From positions 70,421,501 to 70,485,500 of the forward strand of contig CM027381.1 of the NCBI GenBank assembly GCA_015680905.1: a stretch of DNA of 64,000 nucleotides. Reading direction: 5' to 3'. Both the position numbers and the translations under genes were made by a program. The stretch is from Coptis chinensis (taxonomy: Eukaryota > Streptophyta > Magnoliopsida > Ranunculales > Ranunculaceae). Under the pieces are notes generated by a model that had not been told where the DNA came from, ran no database searches, and saw nothing but the letters and a program-made list of their open reading frames with translations. Below are positions 3,531 to 58,757 of the stretch, in pieces (within the stretch, counting starts at the first letter, position 1; the number at the start of each line of letters is the position of its first letter).

Positions 3531-4860
3531 TTTGGTAGCCGAAGTCATCTTCTATCTTATGATCTCCAAAGTTCTTTGAAGTGTGTGGTTGCAAGCCAAA
3601 CCTTAGTCCACAAAAACTTTTTTAACCGAGTATAAATGTCTTCTTCAACATGAGCAAAAAACGCCTTTTCGTAAAACGATGGGTACCTAAAATTTCACCT
3701 CCTTCCTTCTCTTCCCTTTTCTACTCTCTACCTCGCGAACTTCAGCTAATCATTTGGTGTAAGTCTCACTTATCACGAATAGGGAATGGTCGTAGTTCTT
3801 TTGCTTGTAAACGACGTGCGCGAAGAATGGACTGGTGTATGCATTGCCAAACACCCTTCTGTCTAGGCCCTGACTTCCTATCCGATACTAGCCAGTTTAA
3901 GGTATACTTTTGTTCTCGACACCAGCCGCAAGAAGAATATAATCTTTGTCGCCGCGCCGTTTCTCCCATAGGTTGGGACTCGTCTTGAGGATCTGACGTT
4001 AAAAGACTCACCTTGTAGATATGTTTATATTGTTGCCTTTTCCCTTTGCATTAAGTTTTGCACATGAGATTCGTGGTCCAACCTCGGATGTTGCACACTT
4101 GGAACACAAACGGCAATGGATTCCACCGCACCAACCCTAGAGAATTGGTTACTTTGAGTTCCCTTTGGGGCGGTTTGAGGATAACCGTATGTAATAAGGG
4201 CAATTTTATTAGGCAGAGTCGCGACGGTCCAGATGGTACCGCCCCCGCCCCTAACCCCATAATACATAGAGGTGAAGCCACACCGGTTGGATTTGGGTTC
4301 GCTCCAGAGCCGACATGACAGTTGTCTATGATTTAAGATGGTGACTCCCTTGGACATCCAGTGTTTTTCACGTATATCTCCCTTGTATGTAAATAAAACC
4401 TTTGTTTATAAATAAAACACTCTCGTTTTTCTAAAAAAAAAAATTGTGACTTTCAAGAAAGACTCATACAATTGGATAGCATTTTTCGTGCCGATCGTTT
4501 CGGTATCTCATTCGTCCAATTCGGAGTCCAAACGAGTCGTGGGTAAGCATTTAGATTTTTTAGGTTTAAATTGGGCTTTAGGCTTGATTTGGGCTTCGGG
4601 AAATTTTTTGGCCCAACCAAAATACCGATTTCTCGGTCCATTTAAACTCAAAAAACCGGAAAACACGCGTCACAAATACACCATTCTTCTTCCTAAAAAC
4701 CCGGATCTTGCACCCTCTCGAATTAGTCTCGCACGAGACAGCCCACACTAAAACCGGGTCTCGCGAGACCCTCTCACAGCCCGATCAAGATTTCCTTCCG
4801 TCCGGATCATCCCAATTCTCCCCATCAAGAATCAATAGCCATCCTCTCTCTACGACCAGA
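3531..4860 (+). other. Post-pol spacer of the Athila element
   Basis: No recognisable gene. Two short open stretches (3650-3988 and 4058-4318) lack any family motif I know. The sequence turns AT-rich around 4390-4445, with a poly(A) run at 4431-4443. A CTCGCACGAGAC / CTCGCGAGACC pair lies at 4726-4770. Athila elements are known to carry long non-coding or weakly coding stretches here. Confidence 0.5.
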
Positions 4861-15148: not shown

Positions 15149-15813
15149 TTTGACATGCGTTCGTTTTATGTGTAGAAATGAATGGAATATGGAATGTGTA
15201 GATGGATGATGGATGATGGTCGTTGAACAAAACAGAAACATATCAAAACTATCTCTCAATGAGTAAAGGATGAGTAGGATATTGTTCCACTTTTAAGTGT
15301 ATGTTATATGAAGAATAGGACTAGAAAGGGGGTGAGGGATTAAAAACTATGATTGTAGATATTATAAATTGCGTAACTAAACTAAACTATTGAGAATTTA
15401 TAAGGGAGAGAATTCCAGAGATTAGAATCCACCTTTACCTTTGATCTGCGATCTTTTGCTTCATGGTTATTCTCACGGGTAGACTACAATTAGGCAATCG
15501 AGCGAGTGCCGATGCCCTCTTGGACGAAACATCGTTAACAATTAACTGTACTCAAGGTTGTTCCTATGTTTATGTTATTAGTATCTTCTCTCCTTTTATG
15601 TAAGCTCGGGCAGTCATTCAATGTATTACCGAGAGAAACATAAAAAAATACTTCCTAATAGGGAGGCCATTTAATGAATCACCATTTAAGTCAAACACAA
15701 ATAATACTTCCCCTAGGCAGCTACTCCCTGAGCTACCCCTACTAGGGCAACACAAATAATACTTCCCTAACTCTAAAGAACTACACTACTAGAAGAAAAG
15801 TAAAGAACACTAG

Positions 15814-18248: not shown

Positions 18249-19226
18249 ACTAGCATGATATTAATATTGGAAAACATAAACCCTATTATATACTTCCATC
18301 CCCTGGTGTGGGCAATGGAACTAATAACTAAAAACATAAATAACTAACGTGATTGGAGAACACCATGAACTAGAAGAATCATTAAACCCTAAGCACCGGC
18401 TCCATCTTCTCCCTTGAAGAAGAAGATTAGCTTTCCATGAAGAAGGAATAACACGAAGAACGAGAAGAAGAAGAGCCGAAGAACATAAGACTAGAAAGAC
18501 TAATTTATCAAGACTCAACTAGTTAAAACTAATATTTTATTATTAATCTCTCTCTGCCTCAAGTTTTGGAGACAAGAATGTAAGTGAATTGGCGAGTTTC
18601 ATGAGGCACTTAGGTCCTCTATTTATAGGTTACAATGAGCTCTAGAAACATCTCAAACCGTGGCTTGTTTCCTATTACAAATTAACCTCCTTTCCATAAG
18701 GGTTTGGTTTCCAAAATTGTATAAGAGGTGGGAACAGTGTCGGCTTCATGCGTCTGGACGCACGGGCTAGTGCAATTCCTTGCGTCCCAGACGCAAGAGT
18801 CTGTTCTCCTTTTTTTTGCTCCATATATCATTCTTTCCTCTTTTGCGGGCTTTGGTCCAACCAACGAATCCTTTTTCCGTAGGCTTCCAAATAAGCTTTA
18901 AAACAAGTCCAAGTCATATCTTTCATGGCTTCAAATCCTTGGCCTTCTCCATTATTATGCACGGGCTTCCTATATGGTCTTTAATACTCCGAATTGCTCC
19001 ATTTTGCCAATTTTTCTCTAATATTCTACAAAACTCTCTTTTTCACTTGTAGAATCATAAAACATGACTTACAAGCACTGTTAGTCCACTAAGATGGCTA
19101 AACAAAAGGTGTAATCGAGGGTTAAAATGCACTTTTTGAGCACTTATCTTCAAAGAGTTGCAAATCCAATTGACATAGCGGAAGTGATATAAATTGTACA
19201 TTGGAGCATAAAATAGATAAATTAAA

Positions 19227-30648: not shown

Positions 30649-33600
30649 TTAACCCGAGTCATCATAGAAGGAACAGCCACTCAATAATAGCCTGAACTTT
30701 GGAATCATCAACACGAATACCATCGGCAGAAACCACGAAACCCAAAAATACCACAGAGTCAACCATGAAAGAACATTTCTTGAGTTGTAAATAAAGCTTC
30801 TCAGTACGCAAAACACCCAAAAGAATCTCAATATGCTTGATATGTTCGGACTCGGAAAATCAGAAATCAAAATATCATCAAAGTAGACAACACAAAATTT
30901 ATTCAGATAAGGCTTCAAAACCTGAGTCATAAGACGCATGAAGGTAGAAGGAGCATTAGAAAGACCAAAGGGCATGACCAACCACTCATATAAACCGTCT
31001 TTTTGTTTTAAAGGCGTTTTCCATTCATCTCCAAGGCGGATAATGAATGTGATGAAATCCAGATCGCAAATCAAGCTTGGAAAACACCTTAGCACCATGC
31101 AATGAATCAAGCATATCCTCAAGGCGGAATGGGAAAACGATATTTCCGCGTTGATTTTGTTAATAACCCCGCTATCAACACACATCCTCCAACTCCCATC
31201 TTTCTTAGGAGTAAGTAAAAGCACGCACGGCCTGAGGGACATACTCTCTCTAACAAATCCCTTAGCTAATAACTCAGTAACTTGCCTCTGTAACTCGGCG
31301 TGTTCAGAAGGAGCCATGCGATAATGTGGTAAGTTAGGGAGGGGAGCTCCAGGAATAAGATCAATAGCATGTTGGATATCTCGTAAAGGGGGCAATCCTC
31401 CATTAGCAGGCTCAGTACAAACATCAGAATATGAATCTAGCATTGGTTGTAACACAGGTGGTATAGTAGTAGGGTTTGCAAGAAATGACGCAGTAAGAGC
31501 AAGAAACATACCGCAATGACGTCCGTCTGCTAGAAAACCTGGTTTCACTGGTGGGCGTGGCTGAGAAGGTGGGCGAAATGGAGTCAGTGGTGCCAAAACA
31601 ATTTTCTCGCCACTAGAAGTGAAAGTATAAGTGTTCTCACGCCCATTATGAATAACAAGGAGATCATACTGCCAGGGACGACCAAGTAACAAGTGGCATG
31701 CGTCCATGGGTGCAACAGAACACCAAACATCATCCTTGTATTTAGGACCAATGGAGAACGAAACTAGACAACGACGAGTAACCTTGACTGTGGCACCATC
31801 CTGTAACCAAGAAATAGTGTAAGGTTCAGGATGTGGCTCATCCTTGAGTTTCAACTTGTCCACCATATCTTTAGAAACAATATTATCACTGGAACCGCTG
31901 TCAATGATAACATTACATAACATGCCATTCGAAGTGCAGCGAGTACGGAAGATATTATGACGAAGCCATGACGTAGGATCATGCTTAACAACTGGAGTAA
32001 TTAAAGAACGACGAACAATCAATTGGGGACAACCAGAATCTGCATAAGTTAAAAAGTCATCAATCTCAGTGACGTCTTCTTCCGGATGGTTGAGATTTTC
32101 TTCATCCTGTGTTAAACCCACGCGCTTGCGTTTAGGACAGTCACTACGAACATGTCCAATTTCCTTACACTCATAGCATGTGATTGGACCCACTCTGGTA
32201 GGAGGAGGTTTGGATGACGAAGGAACATGGGTAGAAGTGGCACTAGCGATGAGTCGGGAAGGGATGAGCCGGCGCATCTTGACTTTGAGAGCATATTTAA
32301 TAGCATCGGACATATCATAAACATCTTTGAAAGCTAATGCCTCTCGAAGTGGTTTTCGCAACCCATTCAAATAACGCCCAATTTTTTGATCGACAGATTC
32401 GCACAAAATCAGCCCGTGTGCACAACAAAAGAAACTCCTCAAGATATACCCGACCACACTTTGAAGCCGTTGTTTCAAGTTTTGGAGGCGCATGAATAAA
32501 TCCCTTTCATAGTCATGAGGAATAAATTCTTTTTTCAACTCTCGGCGCATCTTATCCCATGTAGTAATCTTATTGTAACCCAATTTAGCACGAGTCAATT
32601 GAAGTTCATCCCACCAAACAAGTGCATAGCCCGTTAATTTAGTCGCAACTAATTTAACACACTTGGGATCCTTAAAAATTTTATAATCAAAAACTTTTTC
32701 AATCTTATTTAACCAGTCGACAAAAGCATCAGGCTGTAATTTTCCATTAAATTCAGGCACGTCTAATTTAATATCACCCATCTGATTCTTCTCCAAAATA
32801 CGCAATAAACGATTAATATCAAAATTACCTAAGGGGTGCTGAAAATTTCGATGCCGTGGATTTCGCCGATTTCTCCCATTGCGATGAGGTGGTGATGGAC
32901 TAGATGAGGAGTCTGAAGGATCAGGTGGATCAAAATCAGGAGCAATACGGTGGGGCTGTCGTTGATTTCGTCGTGGAGAACTTGGTGGTGAAGCTCGTCG
33001 GCCACGGTTAATGGTAGCATCCTGGTGGTGTCTCAAATTCTGGTGGGCATGACCATGAGGATTGGGCCCGAAAGCATCGCGTTGTGGTCGGCCGTGGGCC
33101 CGGTCCGGATAAACCCGCAGTTGGTTATAAGGTGCAAAATTAGAACTTGGTCCAAGTGCTAGTAGCATATTGGGCTTAGTCGGTAGAAGCCCAATTTGGG
33201 GTTTCAATCTCACGAAACGGACATAGAAAGAAAAAGGCCTTCTTCCCCGCGAACTAGGCGTGGAAGACGATCCGCCTTTGGAGCAAAAAGCTTGATCCGT
33301 GAGGTAAGCTTGCTGATTTTCTTGGCGACCTCCTTGATTGCGTTGATGGTGGTGGTTGTCAACTTGATTTGGAGGAACCAAATTCGAATTTGGCGGTGGT
33401 GAGTTCTTAGATCTTCTCTCTCCTTCAAAATCAAGATTTTTGTTGTTGTTGTAAGTCTTGTGAATTCTCTCTCTAACTCCGGGTGTGGTAGGAGTTTGAA
33501 TTCCACCTAATTGGAGATGGTGGGTTTGATATGCTTTGCGATTGTGGGGTCTGCAGCAGCCACCCATTGAGCAATACGCCCGTATCGCTAGAAATTGGGG

Positions 33601-33708
33601 TGAATGTGGTCTAGAAGGTGCATGGCTACGTTGGCGCAGGTTTGGAACTATGCAACCGTGACCACTAGGGGCATCGTCTTCATCCCTTGGCACGAAGTTG
33701 TTCTTCAA
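30649..33708 (-). pseudogene. Chromovirus gag, protease and reverse transcriptase
   Basis: One long minus-strand frame (1019 codons) joins gag, protease and most of RT. Residues 1 to about 290 are Pro/Asn/His/Arg-rich and low in complexity, not a normal gag start, so the true start may be further inside. The gag core follows (LDVPEFNGKLQPDAFVDWLN near residue 320). The zinc knuckle CYECKEIGHVRSDC (CX2CX4HX4C) is near 510. The protease motif IIDSGSSDNIVS is near 600 and LLLGRPWQYD near 680. The RT blocks include MPFGLSNAPSTFM and VYFDDIL near 940, the catalytic box. The frame is corrupted after that box and before the RNase H. The product would package and copy element RNA. Confidence 0.85.
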
Positions 33709-33885
33709 CGGTTCGCGATGCGTTGTTGATAATCAGTGCACGAAGTTGCGACAACATCTCCTTAATCTCTCGCAATTCCATCTTGCTACCTTGTAGTGCT
33801 TCTCACGGTGGTGGTCGTCAAGGTCCTCTTCGTTGAGTGGCCATGACGAAAGCAAACCAGAAAAACCTAAAAATCGATACCAATT

Positions 33886-43833: not shown

Positions 43834-44407
43834 TGTGAGGGAGTGATATTCTCATTCAGGAATATCATGGAATATTATGCACGTGTCCAGCATAACATAA
43901 ATATCATACCGACCTTATGTCCTCGTCCTCCGAGCTGGCTTCGGAGCGACTCATTTCATCAGCTCGCACACCCGATCTACGAGATCGTTCCAAAGTAGCC
44001 CAACTTGTACATCCTCACGCAGAACGTTCCATCTAATGACATCATTCATCATCTAGATGCAATCATTATCAAAGCCGTACTTACACAATCCATTACCGCA
44101 AAATACGAACCACTGCAATTACTCCCTATCATTATGGTATTCCTACCAACACCATCAATACACTCCTTCTCAATCTCAACCATACATCTATGCTTGTCAG
44201 TACACGTGTTGTGTGGATCCTCATGTTCAGCAACTATAAATACCACCGATAAGAACTACGCCGGACCTGATTCTACTCCTCCCCCAGAAGTGAGAGCTAG
44301 ATACGTAGGCAGTTCGCTACAAACGAACTCGATTTTTCCAATCTACAAACCCCTTCTCCTCCACCTAAAACACATTTGTAAAGCCCAAACTAATTCACAC
44401 ATTTACA
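43834..44407 (+). repeat. Tat 5' LTR, 574 bp
   Basis: It begins TGTGAGGG and ends CACACATTTACA, directly before the PBS. CAACTATAAATACCACC near 44230 gives a TATA box (TATAAATA at 44236-44243) for element transcription. The first 140 bp match the truncated 3' LTR with few differences, apart from a ~10-bp deletion in the latter. Confidence 0.9.
44236..44243 (+). promoter_or_regulatory. TATA box in the Tat LTR
   Basis: TATAAATA about 170 bp before the LTR end, in the usual U3 position. Confidence 0.7.
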
Positions 44408-44427
44408 TTGGCACCGTTTGTGGTCTC
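44408..44427 (+). promoter_or_regulatory. Tat primer-binding site
   Basis: TTGGCACCGTTTGTGGTCTC follows the LTR end immediately. It is a TGGCRCCGTCTGTGG-type sequence common at this site in plant gypsy elements. Confidence 0.8.
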
Positions 44428-44493
44428 GATTTCTTAAGAAACCACTTTACACAAGAAAAGAAAAAAAAAAAAAAACTCTCAAGCCCACAAAGC

Positions 44494-45513
44494 ATGGCAA
44501 GCCTCGAAGCTCAAATCCAGATCCTAGCGAATCAACTAGGTACAATGAACGAGCACATCACCCTGCTCAGGCAGGAAAAAGTTGCATTGCGAGCACAGGT
44601 GGAAGCGCAAAACCCAAATGGTGCCTTAGCAGAGAACGGTATCAATGAAGTTAATCAGCAGATTAACGAGCTGTCACACAGAATCGATCAGAGCACAGTC
44701 AAGAAGGACGCCACTCAGATCGTCCAAAAGATGCTGAAGACGTATCGTGCTTCCCCCTTCATTGCTGAGGTACTTAGTAAACCCTCTCCTCCAGATTTCA
44801 TCCAGCCACGCTTTGCAATGTACAATGGCAGCACATGTCCCGGTCAACACGTGTCTCGCTACATTCAGAGCCTCGCACTCTATAGTGCCCAGGAGTTTGA
44901 CCATCTCCACTGCAATTTGTTTCCTGCCAGCCTTAAAGATGGCGCTCTCGATTGGTTCTTTTCACTCGAGCTAGACTCGGTAAAGAACTTCGAGAATCTC
45001 ATCAATCTATTCGCTAGCCAGTACGTCGACAACAGGCGTAAAAAAGCTAACCAAGATTCACTCTTCCAGCTAACCCTAGGCAAAGATGAAGACATCCGCT
45101 CCTTTTTAAGACGGTTCAAAACCGAGCTGCTATGTATGGAGAGTGGCCTGAAACAGTCGTTCGCCACATTGGCGTTCACCAACGCCTGCCGTGTTCGCAA
45201 CACAACACTGTCCAGATCACTACTAAAAGAACGTCCAGAAACTTTAGTAGAGCTGTATGCCCGAGTAGACAAATATATCAAGCTGCAAGAAGGCCTGAAA
45301 TGGGAAGGCCTTACCGAAGAACAACAAATGGCAGCGATTTTTGATGACGCCCCACCTTCTAAGAAGCGACCCGACGGAATGGACCGGAAGTCGAGACGGA
45401 CCGCGCAAGCGACCATGAGTTATTTGTACTTACCCAGATCTCCCGGTTACATCCCGCCATACTGGAGAAGATCAAGAAAGCTGCCTATTACCGACCTGAG
45501 GTACGTCAACTAG
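44494..45513 (+). pseudogene. Tat gag
   Basis: ATG at 44494 follows a poly(A)-rich leader. The first 80 residues are a likely coiled coil (SLEAQIQILANQLGTMNEHI, INEVNQQINELSHRID). The retrotransposon gag domain follows (ALYSAQEFDHLHCNLFPASL, KDGALDWFFSLELDSVKNFE, FLRRFKTELLCMESGLKQS). After about residue 300 a frameshift takes the reading into another frame, where a zinc-binding segment YCAFHRA-stop-HDTNEC occurs (45530-45580), with TGA replacing the glycine codon. Gag forms the particle that packages the element RNA. Confidence 0.85.
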
Positions 45514-46127
45514 AAGATCGATCAGGGAAGCCATACTGCGCCTTTCATCGAGCTAAGTGACACGACACCAACGAATGCTGGGGGCTCAAGCACTACCTCC
45601 AAAACCTCGTTGAATCAGGACATATCAAGCATTATACCAATATAGTTGATGGCGACCTGCGCCATAAGCTCATGGCTCGCAGAGAGCGTAGCAGATCTCC
45701 AGCTCGCAACAATCGCCAAGCTCGCTCTCAATCAAGAGGACGTCCCAGTGACCGATCCCGTCATGACCGCCTTCAACACTCATCCGACCGAGACAACGAC
45801 AGGACGATCAACATGGTTATGTTCCAGGATGATTCTGTAACATCCACCAGGGAAAAAAGGAGACACATAGGCGCTCTCCAGGAAATCTACCAATTCTCTT
45901 CGCAAGCAGCACCTGCCCCATGCACTTCAGGCGACATAACTTTCACTGAGGCCGACCTCAACAAAGTTTGCCTCCCCCATAATGATGCCCTAGTCGTCCA
46001 CATCAAAATTAGCGACTGGATAGTCAAACGAGTCCTGGTCGACCCAGGCAGCTCATGTGACATCTTGTTCTATCAGACCATCAAATACTCCATTAAATAC
46101 TCCGCTTTCCAGGCCTCAGAGGTATGA
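45514..46127 (+). pseudogene. Tat gag C terminus and aspartic protease
   Basis: From ATG 45672 the frame reads an Arg/Ser-rich stretch (RRERSRSPARNNRQARSQSR), then INMVMFQDD and, at about 45960-46075, a retropepsin: DLNKVCLPHNDALVVHIKIS, VKRVLVDPGSSCDILFYQT. The catalytic Asp is present, but the usual D-T/S-G reads D-P-G. The expected ILGRPWL-like C-terminal part is absent. The frame ends at 46127 and the next piece overlaps it in another frame. Confidence 0.8.
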
Positions 46128-46690
46128 TAGAGCTTCGCAGCAACCAGCTCGAGGCTTACAACTGCAATCAAATCCTCTCAGTCAGACCCAAGGGAGAGTT
46201 CGCCAGCATCAAGAGGACAGAAGACTTCGTCGCTGAGGTCAAAACCAAAATGCCAAAGGAAAATGCTAGAGCTTTTGTCAAAAAGGTCCCTTCACAAGAT
46301 AAGACCCCAGAGGTCACCCCAGCTCCTGTTGTCAAGACCCCAAAGGTCGCCCCAGCTCATGTTGTCAAGACCCCAGAGGTTGCCCCAACTCATGTTGTCC
46401 AGACCCCAGAGATCGTTCCAACTATTGGTGTCAAGACCCAGAGATTATCCTAACCCCTGCTTCCCAGACTTCAGAGGTTGCACCCACTCTTGTTGCCAAG
46501 ATATCCGTTCCTCAGGTCGAAAAAACATCACTCGAGACTAGCTCCATGAAGGTAGCTTCATCTTCTAAAGCAGCAGTTCAGACTGAGGAAAAGGAGCGAG
46601 TGAACCTAGGAACAGAGGACGATCCTAAGTTTGTTTATGTAGGAGCTAACTTTGATCTTACTTTAAAAGCACAACTTGTAAGCTTTTTAT
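46128..46690 (+). pseudogene. Tat pol linker between protease and RT, with 33-bp repeats
   Basis: An open frame reads IELRSNQLEAYNCNQILSVR and FASIKRTEDFVAEVKTKMPK. It then reads four units of a TPEVAPxHVVK type (about 46302-46435), after which the frame is lost. It is regained as EEKERVNLGTEDDPKFVYVG and FDLTLKAQLVSFL before the MITE insertion. The unit length of 33 bp keeps the repeats in frame. The final block is the usual region before a DVFAW-like motif, which resumes after the MITE at about 47085-47110. Confidence 0.7.
46302..46435 (+). repeat. Four 33-bp repeats coding TPEVAPxHVVK-like units
   Basis: Units begin ACCCCAGAGGTCACCCCAGC, ACCCCAAAGGTCGCCCCAGC, ACCCCAGAGGTTGCCCCAAC and ACCCCAGAGATCGTTCCAAC. 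A fifth decayed unit with a frame change follows. Confidence 0.85.
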
Positions 46691-47068
46691 GGCAAATTGG
46701 CATATTTCACCCTTGAACTTGTCAAGTTTTACCACTTACCCCCTTAAAGTTCAGTTTAGGCAATTTTAACCCTGTACTTGTAAAACATATCCACCTTCAT
46801 ATTTCCGTACATTTTCGCACCAAGAGTGACGTGGAGTGACGATGGAATTATATTTTATGACGTGGAATTTCTAATTTTGCCACGTGTCAAATTCTAATTT
46901 TGCCACGTCAAAAATATAATTACACGCCACTTTTCGTGCCGGAAATGAACTGAAAAATGGAGCTCGGATACGCTTTTACAAGTCCAGGGTTAAAATTGCC
47001 TGAAGTGAAGTTCAGGGGGGTAAGTGGTAAAACTTGACAAGTTCGAGGGTGAAAACTGCCTTTTTGCC
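46691..47068. mobile_element. Mutator-type MITE, 378 bp, inside Tat pol
   Basis: Both ends are inverted repeats of about 95 bp. The left reads GGCAAATTGGCATATTTCAC and the right read inward reads GGCAAAAAGGCAGTTTTCAC. Both continue with GAACTTGTCAAGTTTTACCA and CAATTTTAACCCTG. A perfect 9-bp duplication GCTTTTTAT flanks it (46682-46690 and 47069-47077). The middle has two GCCACGT(G/C) words. No protein. The pol reading resumes in frame style after the second target copy. Confidence 0.93.
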
Positions 47069-47155
47069 GCTTTTTATCATTGAATAAAGATTTTTTTGCT
47101 TGGTCATACATCGATGTCCCTAGTATAGATCCTAGTATTGCATATCATACCTTAA

Positions 47156-48679
47156 ATGTCAACCAAACCAATTCGTCAGCGACCTAGAAAACTATCCCTG
47201 AGATTTCAAAAAGCAATTAATGATGAGGTCGACAAACTAAAAAAAGTATGCTTCATCAGAAAGGTAGACTACCCAGAGTGGATCGCTAACGTAGTAGTAG
47301 TCCCAAAAAAGAACGACACAGTTCACCTCTGCATAGACTTCACCAATCTCAACCAAGAAACATCTAAAGATAGTTTCCCCCTACCAAGAATCGACTGACT
47401 CGTGGACCAGACCTATGGCCACGAACTCCTGTCATTTATGGATGCATACAATGGATACAACCAAATCTCACTTGCAGAAGAAGACCAAGAGAAAACTTCA
47501 TTCATCACAGAGCAAGGGATCTATTGTTACAATGTCCTCCTATTCGGCCTCAAGAACGCGGGAGCGACATACCAACGGCTCGTTACTGACATGTTCCAAG
47601 ACATGTTAGGCGACACCATGGAAGTCTACATAGACGATATGGTGGTCAAAAGCAAGAAATTGGTTGACCACTTAGGTCACCTCGAGCAGGCGTTCTCTAG
47701 ATTACACCAAACTCAAATGAAACTCAACCCGGAGAAATGCCTCTTAGGCGTGTTCTCTAGGAAATTCCTGGGTTATCAAGTCTCAGAACGAGGAATTGAT
47801 GCTAATCTAGACCAGATCCGAGAGTTCTTGGATATGCCTGATCAAACGACAAAGAAGGAAATACAGAAGTTATCAGGAATGGTGGCAGATCTAAACCGCT
47901 TCATATCGAGAGCATCAGATAAGTGCCAACCATTCCTACAGATTCTTAAAAAGGGCGAACAGTTCTCATGGAGCGAGCAGTGCCAGCAAGCGTTCTCCAC
48001 TCTCAAAGAATACCTGACAACACCACCCGTCCTGGCCAAACCAACCGATGGTGAAACGTTGGGGCTCTACCTCGCAGTATCTGACTTCGCCATCAGTTTG
48101 GTTCTCTTCAAAGAGGACAACGGATCAGAAAAGCCAATCTACTTCACAAGCAAGATGCTGACACCAGCGGAAAAAAACTACTCCTACATTGAAAAAGCAG
48201 TACTCGCATTGCTGTACTTTGTAAGGAAGTTCAGGCCTTACTTTCAAGCACATCCACTCAAAGTACTCACCGACCTCCCACTAAAGAAGATCCTTCTTAA
48301 ATATAACAAGATGACTCACATGGATATATGGGCAGAAGAAATCGGTGAACATCACATTGAGTTCGTCCCGCGCACTTCTCAGAAAGGACAGGTCGTTGCC
48401 GACTTTCCAACAGACTTTCTTGTCGACGACCTGAACTGGGAACCAAAAACAAATGTCCCATCCACTAAACAGCAGGACAAGTCAACCTCGTCACTCTTTG
48501 TGGATGGTTCTAGCAACCCCGGAGGAAGCGGAATCGGAGTCGTCTTAGTGTCCCCAAATGGCACTATGGTTGAGAAATCAGTTCGCATCGACTTTGCGAC
48601 CTTTAATAGCGAGGCGGAATACGAGGCTCTAATCATGGGACTCAGAATGGCGCTACAGCTCGGTGTCCAGGAGTTTTAA
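47156..48679 (+). pseudogene. Tat reverse transcriptase, RNase H and start of the second RNase H
   Basis: The first frame reads QRPRKLSLRFQKAINDEVDK and ANVVVVPKKNDTVHLCIDFT, then stops at TGA 47396-47398 in RID-stop-LVD. The same frame continues: LLSFMDAYNGYNQISLAEED, LLFGLKNAGATYQRLV and the catalytic YIDDMVVKS. The RNase H follows (LAVSDFAISLVLF, EKAVLALLYFVRKFRPYFQA). After a linker comes the second, archaeal-type RNase H (SLFVDGSSNPGGSGIGVVLV, FNSEAEYEALIMGLRMALQL), which Tat elements are known to carry. It ends at TAA 48677-48679, but the text VFSDSQLVVRQI continues after it. About 500 codons with two nonsense codons in this part. Confidence 0.9.
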
Positions 48680-50204: not shown

Positions 50205-50369
50205 AGTTTTTCATTTATATTATATTCTTACTTTTGTTGCTGTTACCATGTATACATGCCTCATAGGTATCAAAGCAGTTCATTAAATCTACAAACACCC
50301 TCACAACTCACTCTATATCGAACTAAAACACTCTCATGAGTTCAAACGTTCTCAAGCACAAAACGCTCT

Positions 50370-50658
50370 TGTCACACCCAATTCCGTGACCTATAACTTT
50401 ACTCGTATTTTGGCTCTTATTTTGGATCGGCTACACCAATTAGGTTGCCTACGTACCCATTTCGGGATCAAGCCACCGTAGTTCACCTCTCTTTTCTCAC
50501 CCCTCTCTACCTCTATTATGAGCTCCCTCTCTCTCTCCTCCCCTATTTTTCTTTTTATATCCCTCTCTTAGGTTCACTTCATGGGGCATAGTATGGTATT
50601 GGGCCTATTCTTTGGGCCCAATACATGCTATGGTCCATCTATGAAAATGGATACTACA
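50370..50658 (-). repeat. Chimeric element 3' LTR
   Basis: On the minus strand it begins TGTAGTATCCATTTTCATAG and ends GAATTGGGTGTGACA. TATAAAAAGAAAAATAGGGG near 50545-50564 (minus) offers a TATA box. Confidence 0.92.
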
Positions 50659-50675
50659 TTTGCCCCCTCTCGAGT
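50659..50675 (-). promoter_or_regulatory. Polypurine tract of the chimeric element
   Basis: On the minus strand ACTCGAGAGGGGGCAAA directly precedes the TGTAG of the LTR. Confidence 0.85.
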
Positions 50676-51429
50676 TCGGCGGTGATCACGACGGTGGACC
50701 CGAGAAGTCTCTGAACTTCCTTGTCTCCCTCTTTAAACTTTAAATATCTGCAGTATCCTGAGACTGTATGCAGTCTTCTTCTCCTCGGGATGTTTCACAT
50801 CCATGTACTCTTCTACTGGATCATATGTCTGTAAAGTACTCAGTCCCTATATATTCTCTTTGTCCGCGTACTCTTGAACTTTGCACTCATCTTTCTTGAC
50901 TCTGTGACTTTGTTGGCCGCGAATTGTATTATAATCCTCCACTCATCTCGCTCTTCCTTCATCACTACCCGAGTCCTCCAACCTCCATCGATAAACTATG
51001 TGTGTCTCAGATCTCCGTAAGTTTCTGTTATATGTAGGTGCATTACATCTCTTCTGGACCCTTTCCTTGATTACATTTTCTCTATCTTTCTAGCCTCTTT
51101 GCTATGGTTCTTTCTGCAAATCTCCAATGGTTCTGCGAGCATCAGTCATAAATAAACTCTACTCCGCGATCCCTCTTTCGATAATCTGGGACAGAAGGAG
51201 TCTTACTTTCGTAGTGTTTTCTTTGCTAAACGTCCTTGATCACGTGACCCAAAATCCGCTTTCTCTTTCTGCTATTAGGTCTCCTTACAGAATTCACTAT
51301 CAGTCCTCGAAGGGTTTCTTTCCCTTGGCACTCACTCTTCCATATCAATCATTATGTCAGCGAAGTATCTCAATCCATCGGTTCTCGTTCATATAACTCA
51401 TTAGCGTATCCACGAAGGGTCTCATCCCC
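50676..51429 (-). other. Interior of the chimeric element, no gene recognised
   Basis: Sequence between the PPT and the repeat array. No coding motif is visible on either strand. Confidence 0.5.
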
Positions 51430-51960
51430 TTCGCTCTCACTCTTCAAACTTAATCCTCATGCCAGCAAAGTGTCTCAACCCAGCTATCCATTTCCCTCTA
51501 CAAAATTCACTACCATGTCCACGAAGTGTCTCACCTTAGCAACCTTCTCTCTTTCATAGATCTCACTACCATATCCAGGGAGTGTCTCGTCCCGTTCATT
51601 TCTCTTTCGTAGAACTCAGCATTGGATCCGCGAAGGATCTCATCCCCTCCGCTTTCATTCGGAAAGCGCGAAGCATATCTAGAGACAACTTCACTTGCCC
51701 CCATATCTGTGGAGTGTCTAACCTCAGCCACCATATCTCTTTCATAGAACTCGCTACCACGTCCGCGGTGTGTCTCGTCCCCTTCATTTCTCTTTCTCGG
51801 AACTCACTACCCTGTCCGCGGAGTGTCTCAGCCCAGCCATAAACTCCCCTTCACAGAACTCATTGCTATGTCCGCGGAGTGTCTCAGCCTAGCCATAAGC
51901 TCTCCTTCATAGAAATCACTACCATGTTCGCGGAGTGTTTCCCTTTCATTTCCCTTTCAT
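51430..51960 (-). repeat. Array of ~60-65-bp degenerate repeats
   Basis: Repeated words on the + strand are TCCGCGGAGTGTCTC, CTTTCATAGAACTCACTACC and variants. Minus-strand frames in it read repeats of the type EREMKGTRHxxDMVV and SMKE, so the units can be coding. Confidence 0.7.
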
Positions 51961-52118
51961 AGAATTCAACATTGTATCCGCCAAGGGTCTCATCCCCTTT
52001 GCACTTACTCATGGAACTCGATATCCCGTACGTAAAGGGCCTCATTCCCTCTATTTCTCTTTTGTAGAACTCAATAGTATTGTTCCTTCTAGATATGTTG
52101 CTTGCTCCCAATTGTAAT

Positions 52119-52820
52119 TTGGAACTCCGGCTCGCGGAGGGCTTAACCCCCCCTACTAAGGAGTGGAGTCTGTTGAGGGGCAACTCAGTTGCCCCCAAGC
52201 TTGATTTGGATATCATGACCGCGGAGGGCTCATCCCCCCCGTTGTCTATGCTCTGGAGTGGAGGCTGATAAGGGGCAACTCAGCTTGCCCCCATGTTTGA
52301 TTCAGATCTCATGTCCGCGGAGGGCTCATCCCCCCCATTGTCTATGCTCTGGAGTGTAGTCTGATGAGGGGCAACTTAGTTTTCCCCCACGTTTGATTCA
52401 GATCTCATGTCTGCGGAGGGCTCATTCCCCCCTTTGTCTATGCTCTGGAGTGTAGTCTGATGAGGAGCAACTCAGCTTGCCCCCACGTTTGATTCAGATC
52501 TCATGTCCGTGGAGGGCTCATCCCCCCCGTTGTCTATGCTCTGGAGTGTAGTCTGATAAGGGGAAACTCAGCTTGCCCCCTCGTTTGATTCAGATCTCAT
52601 GTCCGTGGAGGGCTCATCCCCCCCGTTGTCTATGCTCTAGAGTGGAGGTTGATGAGGGGCAACTCAGCTTGCCCCCACGTTTGATTCAGATCTCATGTCT
52701 GCGGAAGGCTCATCCCCCCCGTTGTCTATGCTCTGGAGTGGAGGTTGATGAGGGGCAATTCAGCTTGCCCCCACATTTGACTCGGACACGAGGGTCTGCG
52801 GAGGGCACATCCCCCCCGCA
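52119..52820 (-). repeat. Array of seven 96-bp repeats
   Basis: On the + strand the phrase (T/G)CGGAGGGCTCATCCCCCC recurs with an exact 96-bp spacing. The equivalent base is at 52215, 52311, 52407, 52503, 52599 and 52695, and the next unit at 52791 is more diverged. Units also share GATTCAGATCTCATG and TGTCTATGCTCTGGAG. The period equals 32 codons. Confidence 0.92.
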
Positions 52821-53225
52821 CTCATTCGGATAACCCCGCGACATATTCGCGAAGGGTCTTCTCGAACCCTTTTGCTCTCTTTCGGAATGCACATCCAGGG
52901 ACAACTCAGCCTGCCCCATGTTTGATTCGGACACGAGGGTCTGCGGAGGGCTCATCCCCACGCACTCATTCGGATAGCCCCACGACATATCCGCGAAGGG
53001 TCTTCTCGAACCCCTCCGCTCTCCTTCGGAATGCTTATTCGGGAATAGCTCAGCCTGCCCCATGTTTGATTCGGACACGAGGGTCCGCGGAGGGCTCATC
53101 CCCTCCGCACTCATTCGGATAGTCCCACAGCATATCTGCGAAGGTTCTTCTCGAACCCCTCTGCACTCATAGAGGCAACTCATTTTGCCCCAAGCTTGAT
53201 TCGAACGCAGTGGTCCACGAAGGGC
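52791..53225 (-). repeat. Three 144/145-bp repeats with coding character
   Basis: Units start with AGGGTCTGCGGAGGG or a variant at 52791, 52936 and 53080. Each combines a relative of the 96-bp unit with a second motif (CATATCCGCGAAGGGTCTTC). A minus-strand frame at 52710-53183 reads them in phase, with repeated phrases TLVSESNMGQAEL, RGSRRPFADMS and GYPNEC. The period of 144 is 48 codons. Confidence 0.88.
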
Positions 53226-53867
53226 TCACTGATCTCCTGGCTTAGAGGCAGCTCCTCTCTATATCTTCCCACATAAGAGTAGACCCAACATCCTCACTAC
53301 ATAGAGACACCATCAGATTTTGAAGTTCCCCGTATAGCTAGTACGGGGTTCAACCCCGGTCTTACTTAATGTTATATCTTACAATAAACCCGCTCAATCT
53401 CAACTCTGTTCTGCAGATCTTTATCTTTCTCTGTAACCATCCATATTCGGACGCTCGAAGCTGGTGATCTCTGTCCCAACCTATTAATCTCATCTTTTCT
53501 CTACCTCGAACTTCCTCGCCGTCGATGTTGTCGAACACTCTTACTCCAGCTCTAGAATTGATTAAAAAGTACTTCGGTTTAAGGTTGACTACATGATAGG
53601 ATGTCGGCACTGGACTCGTAGCCGCGAATGGAACTATGGATAGCGGTGGTGTTCCATTCTGTTTGATAGCGCAACACATATGCAACTGCCCCAAATTCTA
53701 TATTTATATGTGGGTCTGCAGATGGCTCCTCCCCTCCTACCTCATACGTATGTGCAAGCTCAGATGAACTCGAGACACACAACTTACTGCATCATTGTCC
53801 TCATTTGTCGACCACCCCCAACAATGGACCGCATCCGAATTTACAGAGAACCAGTTGTTCACACCCC
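53226..53867 (-). other. Interior of the chimeric element, weakly coding, unrecognised
   Basis: The minus-strand frame 53579-53782 contains GGEEPSADPHINIEFGAVAY, a diverged relative of the repeat unit (EPSAD-x-RSESNVG), so the array once extended to here. The frame 53362-53694 reads KYFLINSRAGVRVFDNI and has no family I know. Confidence 0.45.
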
Positions 53868-54140
53868 TCATATCCACCTTCGAAACTGACTTCTGTATAA
53901 TGGCAGCCTATCAAGCATACAGTGCCTGCATAATAACGTGTAGCACACCCAAAATAGGAGTACAACAAACACAACATTCCTGTAAAAGTTGTATAATATC
54001 ATGTATCCCATATGCTGGTAATTCCAATGCCCATGGACCAGTAACAGGGGAACCAAGAATCTGAACTGCCCCATTACAAAATCCGATGCCATGACAGCTT
54101 GTCTCCCCTCTTAACCACTGATGCCAATTCCCACATCAAC
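53868..54140 (-). pseudogene. P4-ATPase lipid flippase fragment (plant ALA type), captured
   Basis: On the minus strand DVGIGISG is followed by a TAA stop (54111-54113), then [39 protein letters not shown] and [15 protein letters not shown]. This is the stretch after the ATP-hinge of P4-type ATPases: the [16 protein letters not shown] loop and the start of the C-terminal membrane segments, as in Arabidopsis ALA1-type proteins. These enzymes flip phospholipids between leaflets of the plasma membrane and endomembranes. A Gln codon (CAA) has become TAA. After about 53965 the sequence loses similarity. Only about 70-80 of roughly 1200 residues are present, joined directly to the receptor fragment in the same sense. 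Confidence 0.85.
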
Positions 54141-56940
54141 CATTTTGACCACTGTAGCAACATCAAGATTACTCATATGCCTGTAGAAGTATAGGACATA
54201 GCGAAGGCTACGACAGCCACGAGATACAGCAATAAATCCTGCCTCGGTCACTCCACAACTACCCCCCAGGGCAACATATTGATCAAAGGGGTCTTCTGGG
54301 AAGACGCGGAGCTCCTCCAGCAACTGACAGCTAGAACCAATAGCCTCAAGCTCTTTGTTTTCCATGGTGTATATTATCCAAAGTCGATGAAGATTTCGGC
54401 AATTTGGAAGGAGATGAGATAGTTCAGCCCTTTGCAGAGTAGCATCATGATAAGTGCTCAATTTAACCCTCGATTATGCCTCTTGTTTAGCCATCTTAGT
54501 AGACTAATAGTGTTTGTAAGTTATGTTTTATGATTCTATAGGTGAAAGAGAGAGTTTTGTAGAATATTAGAGAAAAAGGGGTAAAATGGAGTAATTCAGA
54601 GCATTAAGGATCACATGGGAAGCCCGTGGACAATCATGGAGAAGGCCAAGGAATTGAAGTCATTAAAGATGTGACTTGGACCTATTTTAAAGCCTATTTG
54701 GAAGTCTAAGGCCAAAAGATTCATTGCTTGGACCAAAGCCCGCAAAAGAGGATAGAAGGATGGAGCAAAAGAGACAAAATAGGCTTACGCGTCTGGGACG
54801 CATGGATCGAGCGTCCAGACGCATTGATCGCGTCTGAGACACATGAATCGTGCATCTAGACGCATGAATCGACATTGTAGCCAATTCTTTCTCAGTTTTG
54901 AAACGAAGTTGGACTCTAAAAGAAGTCTATTTGTATTAGGAAACAAATGACGGTTTGGAATGCTTCTAGAGCTCATTGTAACACCTATAAATAGAGGACC
55001 TAAGTGCCTTATGTAATTTGCCAATTCACTTATACTCTTGTCTCCAGAACTTGAGGCAGAGAGAGATTAATAATAAAAGATCGGTTTTAACTAGCTGAGT
55101 CTTAATAAATTAGTCTTTCTAGTCTTATGTTCTTCGACTCTTCTTCTTCTCGTTCTTTGTGTTCTTCCTTCTATATGGAAGACTAATCTTCTCCTTCAAG
55201 GGAGGAGATAAAGCCAGTGCTTAAGGTTTAATGATTCTTCTGGTACATGGTGTTCTTCAATCAGGTTAGTTTTTTATGTTTTTAGTTATTAGTTCCATTG
55301 CCCACACCAGGGGATGGAAGTATAGAATAGGGTTTATGTTTTGCAATATTAATATCATGCTAGTGTTCTTTACTTTTCTTCTAGTAGTATAGTTCTTTAG
55401 AGTTAGGGAAGTATTCTTTGTGTTGCCTTAGAAGGGGTAGCTTAGGGAGTGGCTGCCTAGGGGAAGTATTCTTTGTGTTTGCCTTAAGTGGTGATTCATT
55501 GAATGGCCGCCCTATTAGGAAGTACTCCTTGATGTTGCTCTCGGTAGTACATTGAATGGCAGCCCGAGCTTACATAAAAGGAAAGAAGATATTAATAGCA
55601 TAAACATAGGAACAACTTTAAGTAGAGTTAATTGTTAAGGATGTTTCGTCTAAGAGGGCATCGGCACTCGCTCGATTGCCTAATTGTAGTCTACTTGTAA
55701 GAACAACCATGAAGCAGAAGGTCATAGATTAAAAGTATTGGTGGATTCTAATATCTTGAATTCCCTCTCTTATAAATTCTCAATAGTTTAGTTAATTTAG
55801 TTTAGTTTAGCATTAGAATCTAAACTCTCTACAATCATAGTTTTTAATCTCTTAAACCCCCTTTCCAGTCCTGTCCTTCACATAACATACACTTAAAAGT
55901 GGAACGATACCCTACTCATCCTTTACTTATTGAGGGATAATTAGGTTTTGATACGCTTCTATTTTGTTCAACGACCATACACCATCTACATACACAAAAA
56001 GAAGCTTGTCACATCACTCAAATTCAAGAAAGTCAAGTTGGTGCAGGCACAATATAGTGCATGGAGGCAGAGGAAATTGGCATCCCATAATCCCGAAAGT
56101 AAGTGTCATTTCTTGAGGCTACTTAATACTTGTTCAAGTTGCACGTACTGCCGACCAGTAAGATCTTGCAACAATGACCCAGTTCTAAGCTGCGTAAGTT
56201 GAGGAGCTCGCACAAGTAAAAACTGTAACTGTTCCAAGATGACATTCTTATTTACTTTCAAGAGTCAAGACCTTCAGCGACTTGCACCTTGCTACAAGTT
56301 TCTCAAGAGCATCATAACTTACATCGCTCTGCATATTTGCAAAGTTCAGAACTTCCAAAGAAGTGAATTTTTCTGGAAAGCAACTCAACCAGGTGCCTCC
56401 AAGCTTATCAATGCCATTCTCCTGTATATCCAGCTCTGTCAAGTTTTTGCAATGAGTTGCAATAGCTAGAAGCTCGTCCGTACTAACTCCCTCACAACTC
56501 ACAAGAGATAGTGCTCTAAAGTTTGGGAAAGATTGAGACAAAAACTCCAAACTCTCATCACTGATAACCATCCTCTTGAGGCGAAGCTCTTCGAGAAATG
56601 GATACGACGATGCGAAAATCCCCAACCATGGATGAATATCAGCACCATAATTAGGTGGAACAAGATTAAAATCTAAGAATCTAGGCTTCCCTTTCAACGT
56701 AACACTTCGAATATTTGGAAATCTATAAACAACAATCTCAGGTGAAACTGAGTAACAATTTCCTATAAAAACATGAGTCCTACTCCATCTTTCTGCATTA
56801 TACCAATCTTTGCAAACATGAGAAACAAAACTTCTATCCTTTTTAGACTTCAAAGACACTAACACACTTTCCAACACTTCATCTGGAAACGGAGAGAATC
56901 TTTCCTCTTCAGGCGAATCTCTTCTCCTCTTTAAATCCAT
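54141..56940 (-). pseudogene. TIR1/AFB auxin-receptor F-box fragment, captured and split by a solo LTR
   Basis: On the minus strand ATG at 56938-56940 starts MDLKRRRDSPEEERFSPFPD EVLESVLV, an F-box start, followed by DRSFVSHVCKDWYNAERWSR and VFIGNCYSVSPEIVVYRFPN. LTLKGKPRFLDFNLVP, LEELRLKRMVISDESLEFLS and LVSCEGVSTDELLAIATHC follow. These are hallmark TIR1/AFB blocks of the F-box and first leucine-rich repeats. A frameshift follows at about 56247; RAPQLTQLRTGS and LSGLWDANF continue in another frame to TFLNLS at 56018. The solo LTR interrupts here. After it, from 54447, come RAELSHLLPNCRNLHRLWII, LEELRVFPEDPF, GVTEAGFIAVSRGCRSLRYV and VATVVK, where the similarity ends. About 410 of roughly 580 residues are represented. 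TIR1/AFBs bind auxin with Aux/IAA proteins in the SCF ligase. This copy cannot make one. Confidence 0.92.
54448..56011 (+). mobile_element. Athila-type solo LTR, 1564 bp, inside the captured receptor gene
   Basis: It starts TGATAAGTGCTCAATTTAAC and ends AAGAAGCTTGTCA, with a perfect 5-bp duplication CATCA (54443-54447 and 56012-56016). It is homologous over its length to the minus-strand LTR at 15151-19149. It contains a TATA box CACCTATAAATAGAGGACC near 54985-55005 and a region with repeated GCGTC(T/C)(G/A)(G/A)(G/A)ACGCA-type palindromic words near 54788-54870. No PBS, PPT or interior is present, so it formed by recombination between two LTRs. Confidence 0.93.
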
Positions 56941-57008
56941 AATAACTCAAATCTTGTAATCTTATCTCAAAACTCAATTAGAAACGAAATAAATTAATAC
57001 CAACACTC

Positions 57009-57290
57009 CTAATGATCAAAAAAATCATTTCTTTTTATCATTTGACAGTAGAAAACCAAATGCCGGATAATAAAAATTGATGAAACATTTGCTTCAATAG
57101 TACACACATCCTCTTTCATACCATTTTCGCAATCCAATTCACTATTATTCCCTCTAAGCTGCTCAGAACCCAACCCAGAATGATTATCTTCACACCTCAA
57201 GTCTTGCTTCCCTTCAAAGTCGATAACTTTAGGTGAAACCACCTCCTCAGAGCCCGAAATAGCAAAACTCGTTTAGTAATATAAGTATTA
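57009..57290 (-). pseudogene. Unrecognised coding-like fragment between PBS and receptor fragment
   Basis: The minus-strand frame reads SGSEEVVSPKVIDFEGKQDL, CEDNHSGLGSEQLRGNNSEL and DVCTIEANVSSIFIIRHLV. It is acidic and hydrophilic at first, then hydrophobic, and it ends at TGA near 57009. It may be a further captured exon or part of an old gag. I recognise no domain. Confidence 0.35.
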
Positions 57291-57415
57291 TTCTTAATAA
57301 GATGACAGTGGATTATTTTTCTCTGGAAAGGTACCACCTTTCTTTGGTTTTTCTAAACCCCAAATAGTGTTGGCGACCAGATTTTCTTCTCACCCACCTC
57401 TCTCTACTTATCGAT

Positions 57416-57434
57416 CTCCACAGATGGTGCCATT
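57416..57434 (-). promoter_or_regulatory. Primer-binding site of the chimeric element
   Basis: On the minus strand AATGGCACCATCTGTGGAG follows the LTR end ACA directly. It resembles the TGGCRCCRTCTGTGG-type sites of plant gypsy elements, including that at 44408. Confidence 0.85.
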
Positions 57435-57723
57435 TGTCGCACCCAATTCTGTGACCTATAACTTTACTCGTATTCCGGCTCTCATTTTGGATCGGCTGCA
57501 CCAATTAGGTTGCCTACGTACCTATTTCGGGATCAAGCCGCCGTAGTTCACCTCTCTTTCCTCACCCCTCTCTACCTCCATTATGAGCTCCCTCTCTCTC
57601 TCCTCGCCTTTTTTTCTTTTTATATCCCTCTCTTAGGTTCACTTCATGGGGCATAGTATGGTATTGGGCCTATTCTCTGGGCCCAATACATGCTATGGTC
57701 CATCTATGAAAACGGCTACTACA
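57435..57723 (-). repeat. Chimeric element 5' LTR
   Basis: Same length as the partner at 50370 and about 95 percent identical by eye. Most differences are transitions. Confidence 0.92.
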
Positions 57724-57728
57724 GCTCT

Positions 57729-58390
57729 CTCAAGCTCATAGGCTTCTTAGCCTCTACAGTTCTTACTAGTTGATGATCTACAACTCTAGGCTCAACTCAG
57801 TGAGAGCGCTCTCCGTGAGCAACATGCTTTCTTAAGATAACACGCTCACTTGAGCTCATAGGCTTCTCAGCCTCTACAGTTCTTACTAGTTAATGACCTA
57901 CAACTCAAGGCTCAACTCAGTGAGAACACTTTCCGTGAGCAACACGCTTTCTTAAGATAACATGCTCACTCGAGCTCATATGATTCTTAGCCTCTACATT
58001 TCTTACTAGTTGATGACCTACAACTCTAGGCTCAACTCAGTGAGAACGCTCTCCATGAGCAACACGCTTTTTTAAGCTAACACGCTCACTCGATCTCATA
58101 GGCTTCTCAGCTTCTACTGTTCTTACTAGTTGATGACCTACAACTCTAGGCTCAACTCAGCGAGAACGCTTTCCGCGAGCAACACACTTTCTTAAGCTAA
58201 CACGCTCACTCAAGCTCATAGGCTTCTCAGCCTCTACAGTTCTTACTAGTTGATGACCTACAACTCTAGACTCAACTTAGCGAAAACACTCTCCGTGAGC
58301 AATACATTTCTTCAGCTAGCATGCCCACTCGAGCTTGTAGGCCTCTTACCCTCTACATTTCTTATTTGTTGAAGACCTACATCCCTAGGC
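57729..58390 (+). repeat. Array of 120-bp tandem repeats in the Tat 3' region
   Basis: CTCATAGGCTTCT(T/C)AGCCTC recurs at 57736, 57856, 57976, 58096 and 58216 with exact 120-bp spacing, and a sixth, diverged unit follows. Each unit contains CTTACTAGTTGATGACCTAC and CAACTCAGTGAGAACGCT. Confidence 0.93.
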
Positions 58391-58757
58391 TGCAATGATG
58401 CGATGACAAAATAATATGTGAAAGTAGTTGGACATAAGCAAAATACATGCATTCCATAACAAGATAAACGAACTACCTGAACAAACTCAGGAAACTAGTT
58501 CATAAATCAACCGCTCTGTTGGGTCTACCAAGAAATCCAGATCGGTTTGACTACAAGTTGTGAAACTATTGAACTGCCACCTACGTGGAAACCAGTTTGT
58601 TCTGTATCTTTGCAACTATAAAGAAAGGCGAACTGCCCAGGCAAGCCCAGGCCACCAGTTCTATTGTTATACAATCAAGTAAAAGCTGAAATCGGGAAAG
58701 ATAATTCAAAAATAACTCACCACTTAAACCAAGGAATAAGACATAAAGAAACAAGGG
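58391..58757 (-). other. Tat 3' region, likely 3' untranslated part of antisense module B
   Basis: No coding sequence. It shares words with 60710-60960 (CTGAACAAACT-AG-ACTAGTTCAT, CTGTTGGG), so it belongs to the duplicated module. Confidence 0.6.

Follow-up and report, generated by a model that had tools for sequence, protein, structure and literature searches.

Host exons fused in a Coptis chinensis LTR retrotransposon: joined TIR1/AFB and P4-ATPase fragments whose outer joins look like splice junctions

How do pieces of two unrelated host genes come to lie fused within a single retrotransposon? This question is raised by positions 50370-57723 of the window, the 64,000-nucleotide stretch of Coptis chinensis DNA analysed here. 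The segment is an LTR retrotransposon in which part of a TIR1/AFB auxin receptor gene directly meets part of a P4-ATPase (flippase) gene. Plant LTR elements are already known to capture genes, examples being exon capture by TRIM elements as outlined in PMC4717578 and the captures surveyed in rice and sorghum (PMC3726574); the mode of joining has so far been mostly inferred. Here, the parents, the introns and all three joins are readable for one chimera. We propose, with a probability of roughly 0.6 and on the basis of sequence comparison, that exons of the element were spliced to host exons and that the two RNAs were then joined by template switching.

The sense strand of the element is the minus strand of the window, and element coordinates (el) are counted from window position 57723 (el 1). 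Its features are:

50365..50369, no strand: target site duplication GCTCT, left copy, with the right copy at 57724-57728, outside both LTRs (by reading)
57435..57723, minus strand: 5' LTR (repeat comparison)
57416..57432, minus strand: PBS-like stretch TGGCACCATCTGTGGAG (comparison with other copies)
57258..57434, minus strand: leader, partly common to other copies (copy comparison)
57086..57257, minus strand: segA, a shared segment with a donor-like end (copy comparison)
54143..57085, minus strand: TIR1/AFB mRNA fragment, interrupted by a nested LTR (Pfam, PDB and parent alignment)
54448..56011, nominally plus strand: nested solo LTR with duplication CATCA (boundaries inferred by reading)
54142..54147, minus strand: TIR1/P4-ATPase join with CAAA overlap (parent comparison)
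53950..54142, minus strand: P4-ATPase (flippase) fragment, its end being the parental exon end (Pfam, PDB and parent exon)
53436..53949, minus strand: segB, a shared segment (copy comparison)
50659..53438, minus strand: shared 3' region with tandem arrays (copy comparison)
50659..50672, minus strand: terminal purine tract within the shared 3' region
50370..50658, minus strand: 3' LTR (repeat comparison)

The direct terminal repeats of 289 bp each have paired TG starts and CA ends and are 95% identical, with differences at 15 of 289 sites; repeat comparison and reading confirmed both the LTRs and the GCTCT duplication described in an earlier sequence-only reading. On the minus strand, the 5' LTR is followed by the PBS-like stretch, which is without a matched tRNA, and the 3' LTR is preceded by the purine tract GAGAGGGGGCAAA. 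PBS-like and purine-rich stretches are similarly placed in other copies, several of which contain TGGCGCCGTCTGTGGG as their PBS-like stretch, and the PBS may link the element to the Retand/Tat Gypsy elements. The 3' region contains tandem arrays of 96-bp units (52160-52818) and 144-bp units (52751-53168). The host pieces are flanked by shared element segments, with segA on one side and segB on the other. In agreement with the sequence-only reading, which saw no gag or pol motif, Pfam detected no gag or pol domain in the 15 ORFs scanned among the 69 (at least 45 aa) present in 50300-57800; the proteins for this element would have to come from an autonomous partner.

Both host assignments made from the sequence alone held up. 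The receptor piece matched Pfam F-box_5 and Transp_inhibit as well as TIR1 in the PDB (2p1m; E 4.6e-77, with a second part at E 2.9e-20), and the flippase piece of ~193 nt matched Pfam PhoLip_ATPase_C (E 1e-20) and flippases in the PDB. A genome search with the minus-strand stretch 56000-57434 identified the receptor's parent gene on another contig, C8. At this locus (L042) the TIR1/AFB coding sequence is intact, spans 584 aa and contains two GT-AG introns, one of 775 bp and the other of 2195 bp. According to the coordinates, the portion of this gene in the element extends from the 5'UTR as far as codon 407 or so (of 584), with the start codon at 56940; identity is 88-94% by block and 95.8% over 672 coding nt. 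It crosses both parental exon joins exactly and without an intron (parental intron positions 56447 and 54378), and the TIR1 piece therefore derives from spliced RNA, which firmly places its capture at the RNA level. Together, the parents found and the missing TIR1 introns bear out the view that pieces of two unrelated host transcripts, joined through RNA, are carried by a non-autonomous LTR element. DNA elements commonly capture genes in plants, as described in PMC13317346 and counted for maize in PMC2774510. DNA-level capture by a Helitron, a Pack-MULE or gene conversion is highly improbable here, as the two parental introns are exactly absent, the host pieces lie in the sense of the element, and the whole is bounded by LTRs and a 5-bp duplication. 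Capture by a Helitron or Pack-MULE with introns included was rejected on the introns of the TIR1 parent that are missing from the element.

The receptor piece is split by a nested solo LTR of ~1.56 kb, flanked by CATCA at 54443-54447 and 56012-56016, and this insertion is a later event. The nested LTR belongs to another family, with relatives at window positions 15208-15813 and 18249-19148, ~2.4 kb apart.

The parent exon of the flippase piece was located on contig C28 (L051; 94% identity), a related P4-ATPase exon (L052) is 85% identical, and the next P4-ATPase exon was located in L074. The piece lies inside a single exon and so provides no intron test by itself. No copy of the element was found in the stretches read, which covered 8.0 and 4.0 kb at the TIR1 parent and 0.9 and 2.1 kb at the P4-ATPase exon.

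Comparison with these parents defines three joins. At join 1 (el 638/639), the segA end GCAAATG leads into the start of a TIR1 exon, which in the parent is preceded by TTTTTTTCCCTTCAG. At join 3 (el 3774/3775), the P4-ATPase exon end CTATTTTG, next to which the parent has a GTGAGT donor, leads into segB; the next coding exon found is preceded by TTTTTGCAG. The overlap is 1 nt only at join 1 and likewise at join 3. Scored with general splice-site weights, the four splice-like sites score near the introns of the TIR1 parent itself, with local ranks of 4/33 and 5/60 among GT sites and 4/85 and 1/45 among AG sites. Judged by these sequences, both outer joins look like splice junctions and not like jumps of the reverse transcriptase. 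Join 2, between TIR1 and P4-ATPase (~el 3577-3582), lies inside exons of both genes, has the 4-nt overlap CAAA and shows a one-base difference against either parent; a wider 20-nt resemblance at this place was equalled in 811 of 2000 shuffles. Both outer joins were checked against parents in the window element, which has the P4-ATPase/segB join in common with one further locus (L010). The sequence-only reading had proposed that the two transcripts were joined during reverse transcription; join 2, within exons and with its 4-nt overlap, agrees with this, but the outer joins have the look of splicing.

Donor-like and acceptor-like sites at the outer joins, together with a middle join inside exons, suggest splicing followed by a template switch. 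A transcript of the element would have reached the TIR1 locus, where splicing would have linked the donor-like site of segA to the 5'UTR exon of TIR1. In a P4-ATPase transcript, the exon end would have been joined by splicing to the acceptor-like site at the segB start. Both RNAs would then have been packaged together, and the reverse transcriptase would have switched template at the short overlap, yielding a single cDNA with both LTRs. Retroviral oncogene capture is thought to follow such a splice-then-switch order. By analogy, the order proposed here would share with it the LTR-driven fusion transcript, splicing, co-packaging and the template switch; it differs in concerning a plant LTR retrotransposon and two host genes in a single copy.

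In the standard model of LTR-mediated retroposition, put forward by Tan and coworkers, template switching joins packaged host mRNA to element RNA (PMC5408686). Applied to the window element, each of the three joins would mark a place where the reverse transcriptase switched, at a short similarity, between packaged RNA of the element and a mature host mRNA, and the match to splice sites would be accidental. The TIR1/P4-ATPase join fits this model, and with gaps allowed the start of segB weakly resembles the next P4-ATPase exon (90 of 2000 shuffles were as good), which makes a template switch at join 3 possible. The outer joins set the window element apart from the model as described in that source, since they coincide exactly with parental exon ends, overlap by 1 nt and fall on splice-like sites.

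The same segments in other loci bear on this choice. Of the 21 segA matches listed in the genome, 18 were compared as copies, each place being counted once. In these, GCAAATG or a variant of it is followed by three continuations, namely the TIR1 5'UTR in 7/18 (the window element and L043-L048), GTGAG in 3/18 (L035, L049, L050) and, in 8/18 (L033, L034, L036-L041), a third sequence that varies slightly. An open frame reads on through GTGAG in L049, and the segA donor is therefore a putative one. For segB, 23 starts were compared, comprising 21 listed places with a match reaching the start plus L009 and L016. A common upstream sequence precedes 16 of them and ends in CAG in 11, in CAAG in two (L057, L061) and without AG in three (L050, L062, L069). 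The seven other starts fall into five groups: the window element and L010 (P4-ATPase exon), L016 and L067, L065, L009, and L068, the latter with an offset of a few bases. SegB thus starts at one nucleotide behind the common sequence and behind four unrelated upstream sequences. One start nucleotide of segB behind four unrelated sequences and one stop of segA before three continuations both speak against template switching at every join.

The cargo of L065 resembles sequences on contigs C1 and C4, and one intron has been removed from it. Where this cargo meets segB, two gene relatives that reach the join, L070 and L071, lack a GT (GAAAG/GCTTT and GAAAA/GATTT), and splicing at the L065 join is not supported; a third relative, L072, ends short of it. 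L065 without a GT, the 5/16 common upstream sequences without CAG, the P4-ATPase resemblance, the open frame of L049 and the lack of an element copy in the parental stretches read keep template switching at the outer joins in consideration. Taken over all joins, we regard template switching as unlikely, and prefer splicing followed by a single switch. A leader break near el 405 was considered as a second donor and rejected, since L013 and L016 are alike there without a cargo join. As a separate observation, the segA-bearing locus L034 contains a 200-aa open frame in which an HSP70 piece is in frame with a PPR piece (ORF at 2491, reverse complement).

A genome search for further copies with the same LTRs, suggested by the sequence-only reading, returned at least 42 matches to the window LTR (40 scored of 759 candidates), from which seven LTR-to-LTR copies of at most 10 kb besides the window element were cut (L011-L017). 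Outside this count are two wider-spaced LTR pairs, the broken copy L020 and the single-LTR loci L018, L019 and L021. Common to the copies are the LTRs (with 23-24 bases at the start unaligned in L015 and L016), the beginning of the leader and, with the exception of the short L017, the 3' region; their middle is variable, and modules are distributed as a mosaic between copies. Pfam scans of selected ORFs in the sense of the element gave matches above the cut-off for GOST_TM in L011, for PPR, MMR_HSR1 and GOST_TM in L013, for Agenet, kinase and the PPR E motif in L014, for PPR in L015 and for 2OG-FeII_Oxy in L017. L012 has the L017 cargo at the DNA level (92.9% over 1556 bp), its own ORF being without a Pfam match. 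L016 has a PPR match below the cut-off and a DNA match of 88% identity with the L013 GTPase piece, with no Pfam match for its GTPase-like ORF. Host cargo is present in 5/7 of these copies by the Pfam cut-off and in 2/7 by weaker evidence (6/8 and 2/8, respectively, with the window element included), and comprises GPCR-like, PPR, GTPase, kinase, Agenet and oxygenase pieces in the copies other than the window element. Several copies are multi-gene chimeras. Within the GPCR-like cargo, ~380 bp present in L011 are absent from L020, by splicing or deletion.

Capture as a lone accident was rejected, as other copies carry host cargo and the TIR1/P4-ATPase join also occurs in L010. Judging from sequence, trapping of host exons by splicing is likely, with parents traced for the cargo of one element, that of the window; elsewhere, a spliced origin is indicated for the L065 cargo by its one missing intron. 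We further hypothesize that the family traps exons habitually, by means of a donor site towards the 5' end of its RNA and an acceptor site ahead of the 3' region, giving rise to multi-gene chimeras, a proposal to which we give about even odds.

The chimera may have a longer history than the window copy. SegA together with the TIR1 5'UTR (el 639-760) was found in six further loci (L043-L048), five of which have an LTR-like repeat pair of ~520-580 bp; the window LTR gave no match in any of the six at E 1e-6. Furthermore, the TIR1/P4-ATPase/segB join recurs in L010 behind an upstream part that differs from that of the window element, which places the fusion in at least two copies. These loci and the mosaic of modules favour an alternative in which the parts were assembled beforehand, within a host retrogene or a different element family, and passed to the family of the window LTRs through recombination between packaged RNAs, with the window copy as a late recombinant. 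Such pre-assembly would move the origin only one step earlier, still requiring RNA capture and the same joins, and a fused host gene is absent among the genome matches listed; we consider it doubtful. It can be combined with each of the two accounts given for the joins, and its odds overlap with theirs. Whatever the place of assembly, the mosaic structure, including the copies with the ~520-580 bp repeat pair, points to later swapping between elements.

Substitutions are taken to accumulate at 1.3e-8 per site and year. At this rate, the 15/289 differences between the LTRs would correspond to an insertion about two million years ago. The receptor piece shows 11 synonymous and 17 non-synonymous changes, with ~21% synonymous expected at random. 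The synonymous excess can stem from the parent's own branch, and evolution of the cargo therefore looks near neutral. The frame of the chimera is broken by a 7-nt insertion and by a stop in the P4-ATPase piece. That the window copy constitutes a functional new gene was rejected on the broken frame and the near-neutral substitutions. L010 (6185-6685) contains an open frame of 167 aa across TIR1, P4-ATPase and segB, in contrast to the broken frame of the window copy.

The left-hand neighbour of the window element is of Gypsy type and has gag and reverse transcriptase domains (43999-48676); the window element may have its place within this neighbour's 3' tandem region. On the right, the window element adjoins a tandem array of 120-bp units (5.6 copies, 57724-58391). 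Another retroelement at 30652-33732 has a minus-strand frame of 1027 aa with gag, protease and reverse transcriptase domains.

Among recent Retand elements surveyed, about half have arrays of tandem repeats downstream of pol and ahead of the 3' LTR (PMC11963269). The window element resembles these Retand/Tat Gypsy elements in its 3' tandem arrays and differs in that no pol was found in the ORFs scanned. A close likeness in cargo is to maize Bs1, also an LTR element with host gene pieces, which is described as carrying pieces of three host genes and a transcribed and translated chimeric gene (PMC13317346) and whose cargo consists of exons only (PMC4717578), likewise intronless. Bs1 differs in its host genes and sequence; varied cargo between related copies is a feature of the window family, and outer joins at splice sites are a feature of the window copy when set against Bs1 as known from these descriptions. 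In open-access titles and abstract openings, no report of plant LTR elements that trap at splice sites, or of a TIR1/P4-ATPase fusion, was found among the matches listed. The maize survey reports 425 elements with gene fragments and, under the conditions used, none with more than one standard nuclear gene (PMC2774510); measured against that survey as far as it is described, the two- and three-gene copies are conspicuous. If the proposed reading is true, a family that fuses varied host exons would constitute a natural exon-shuffling device.
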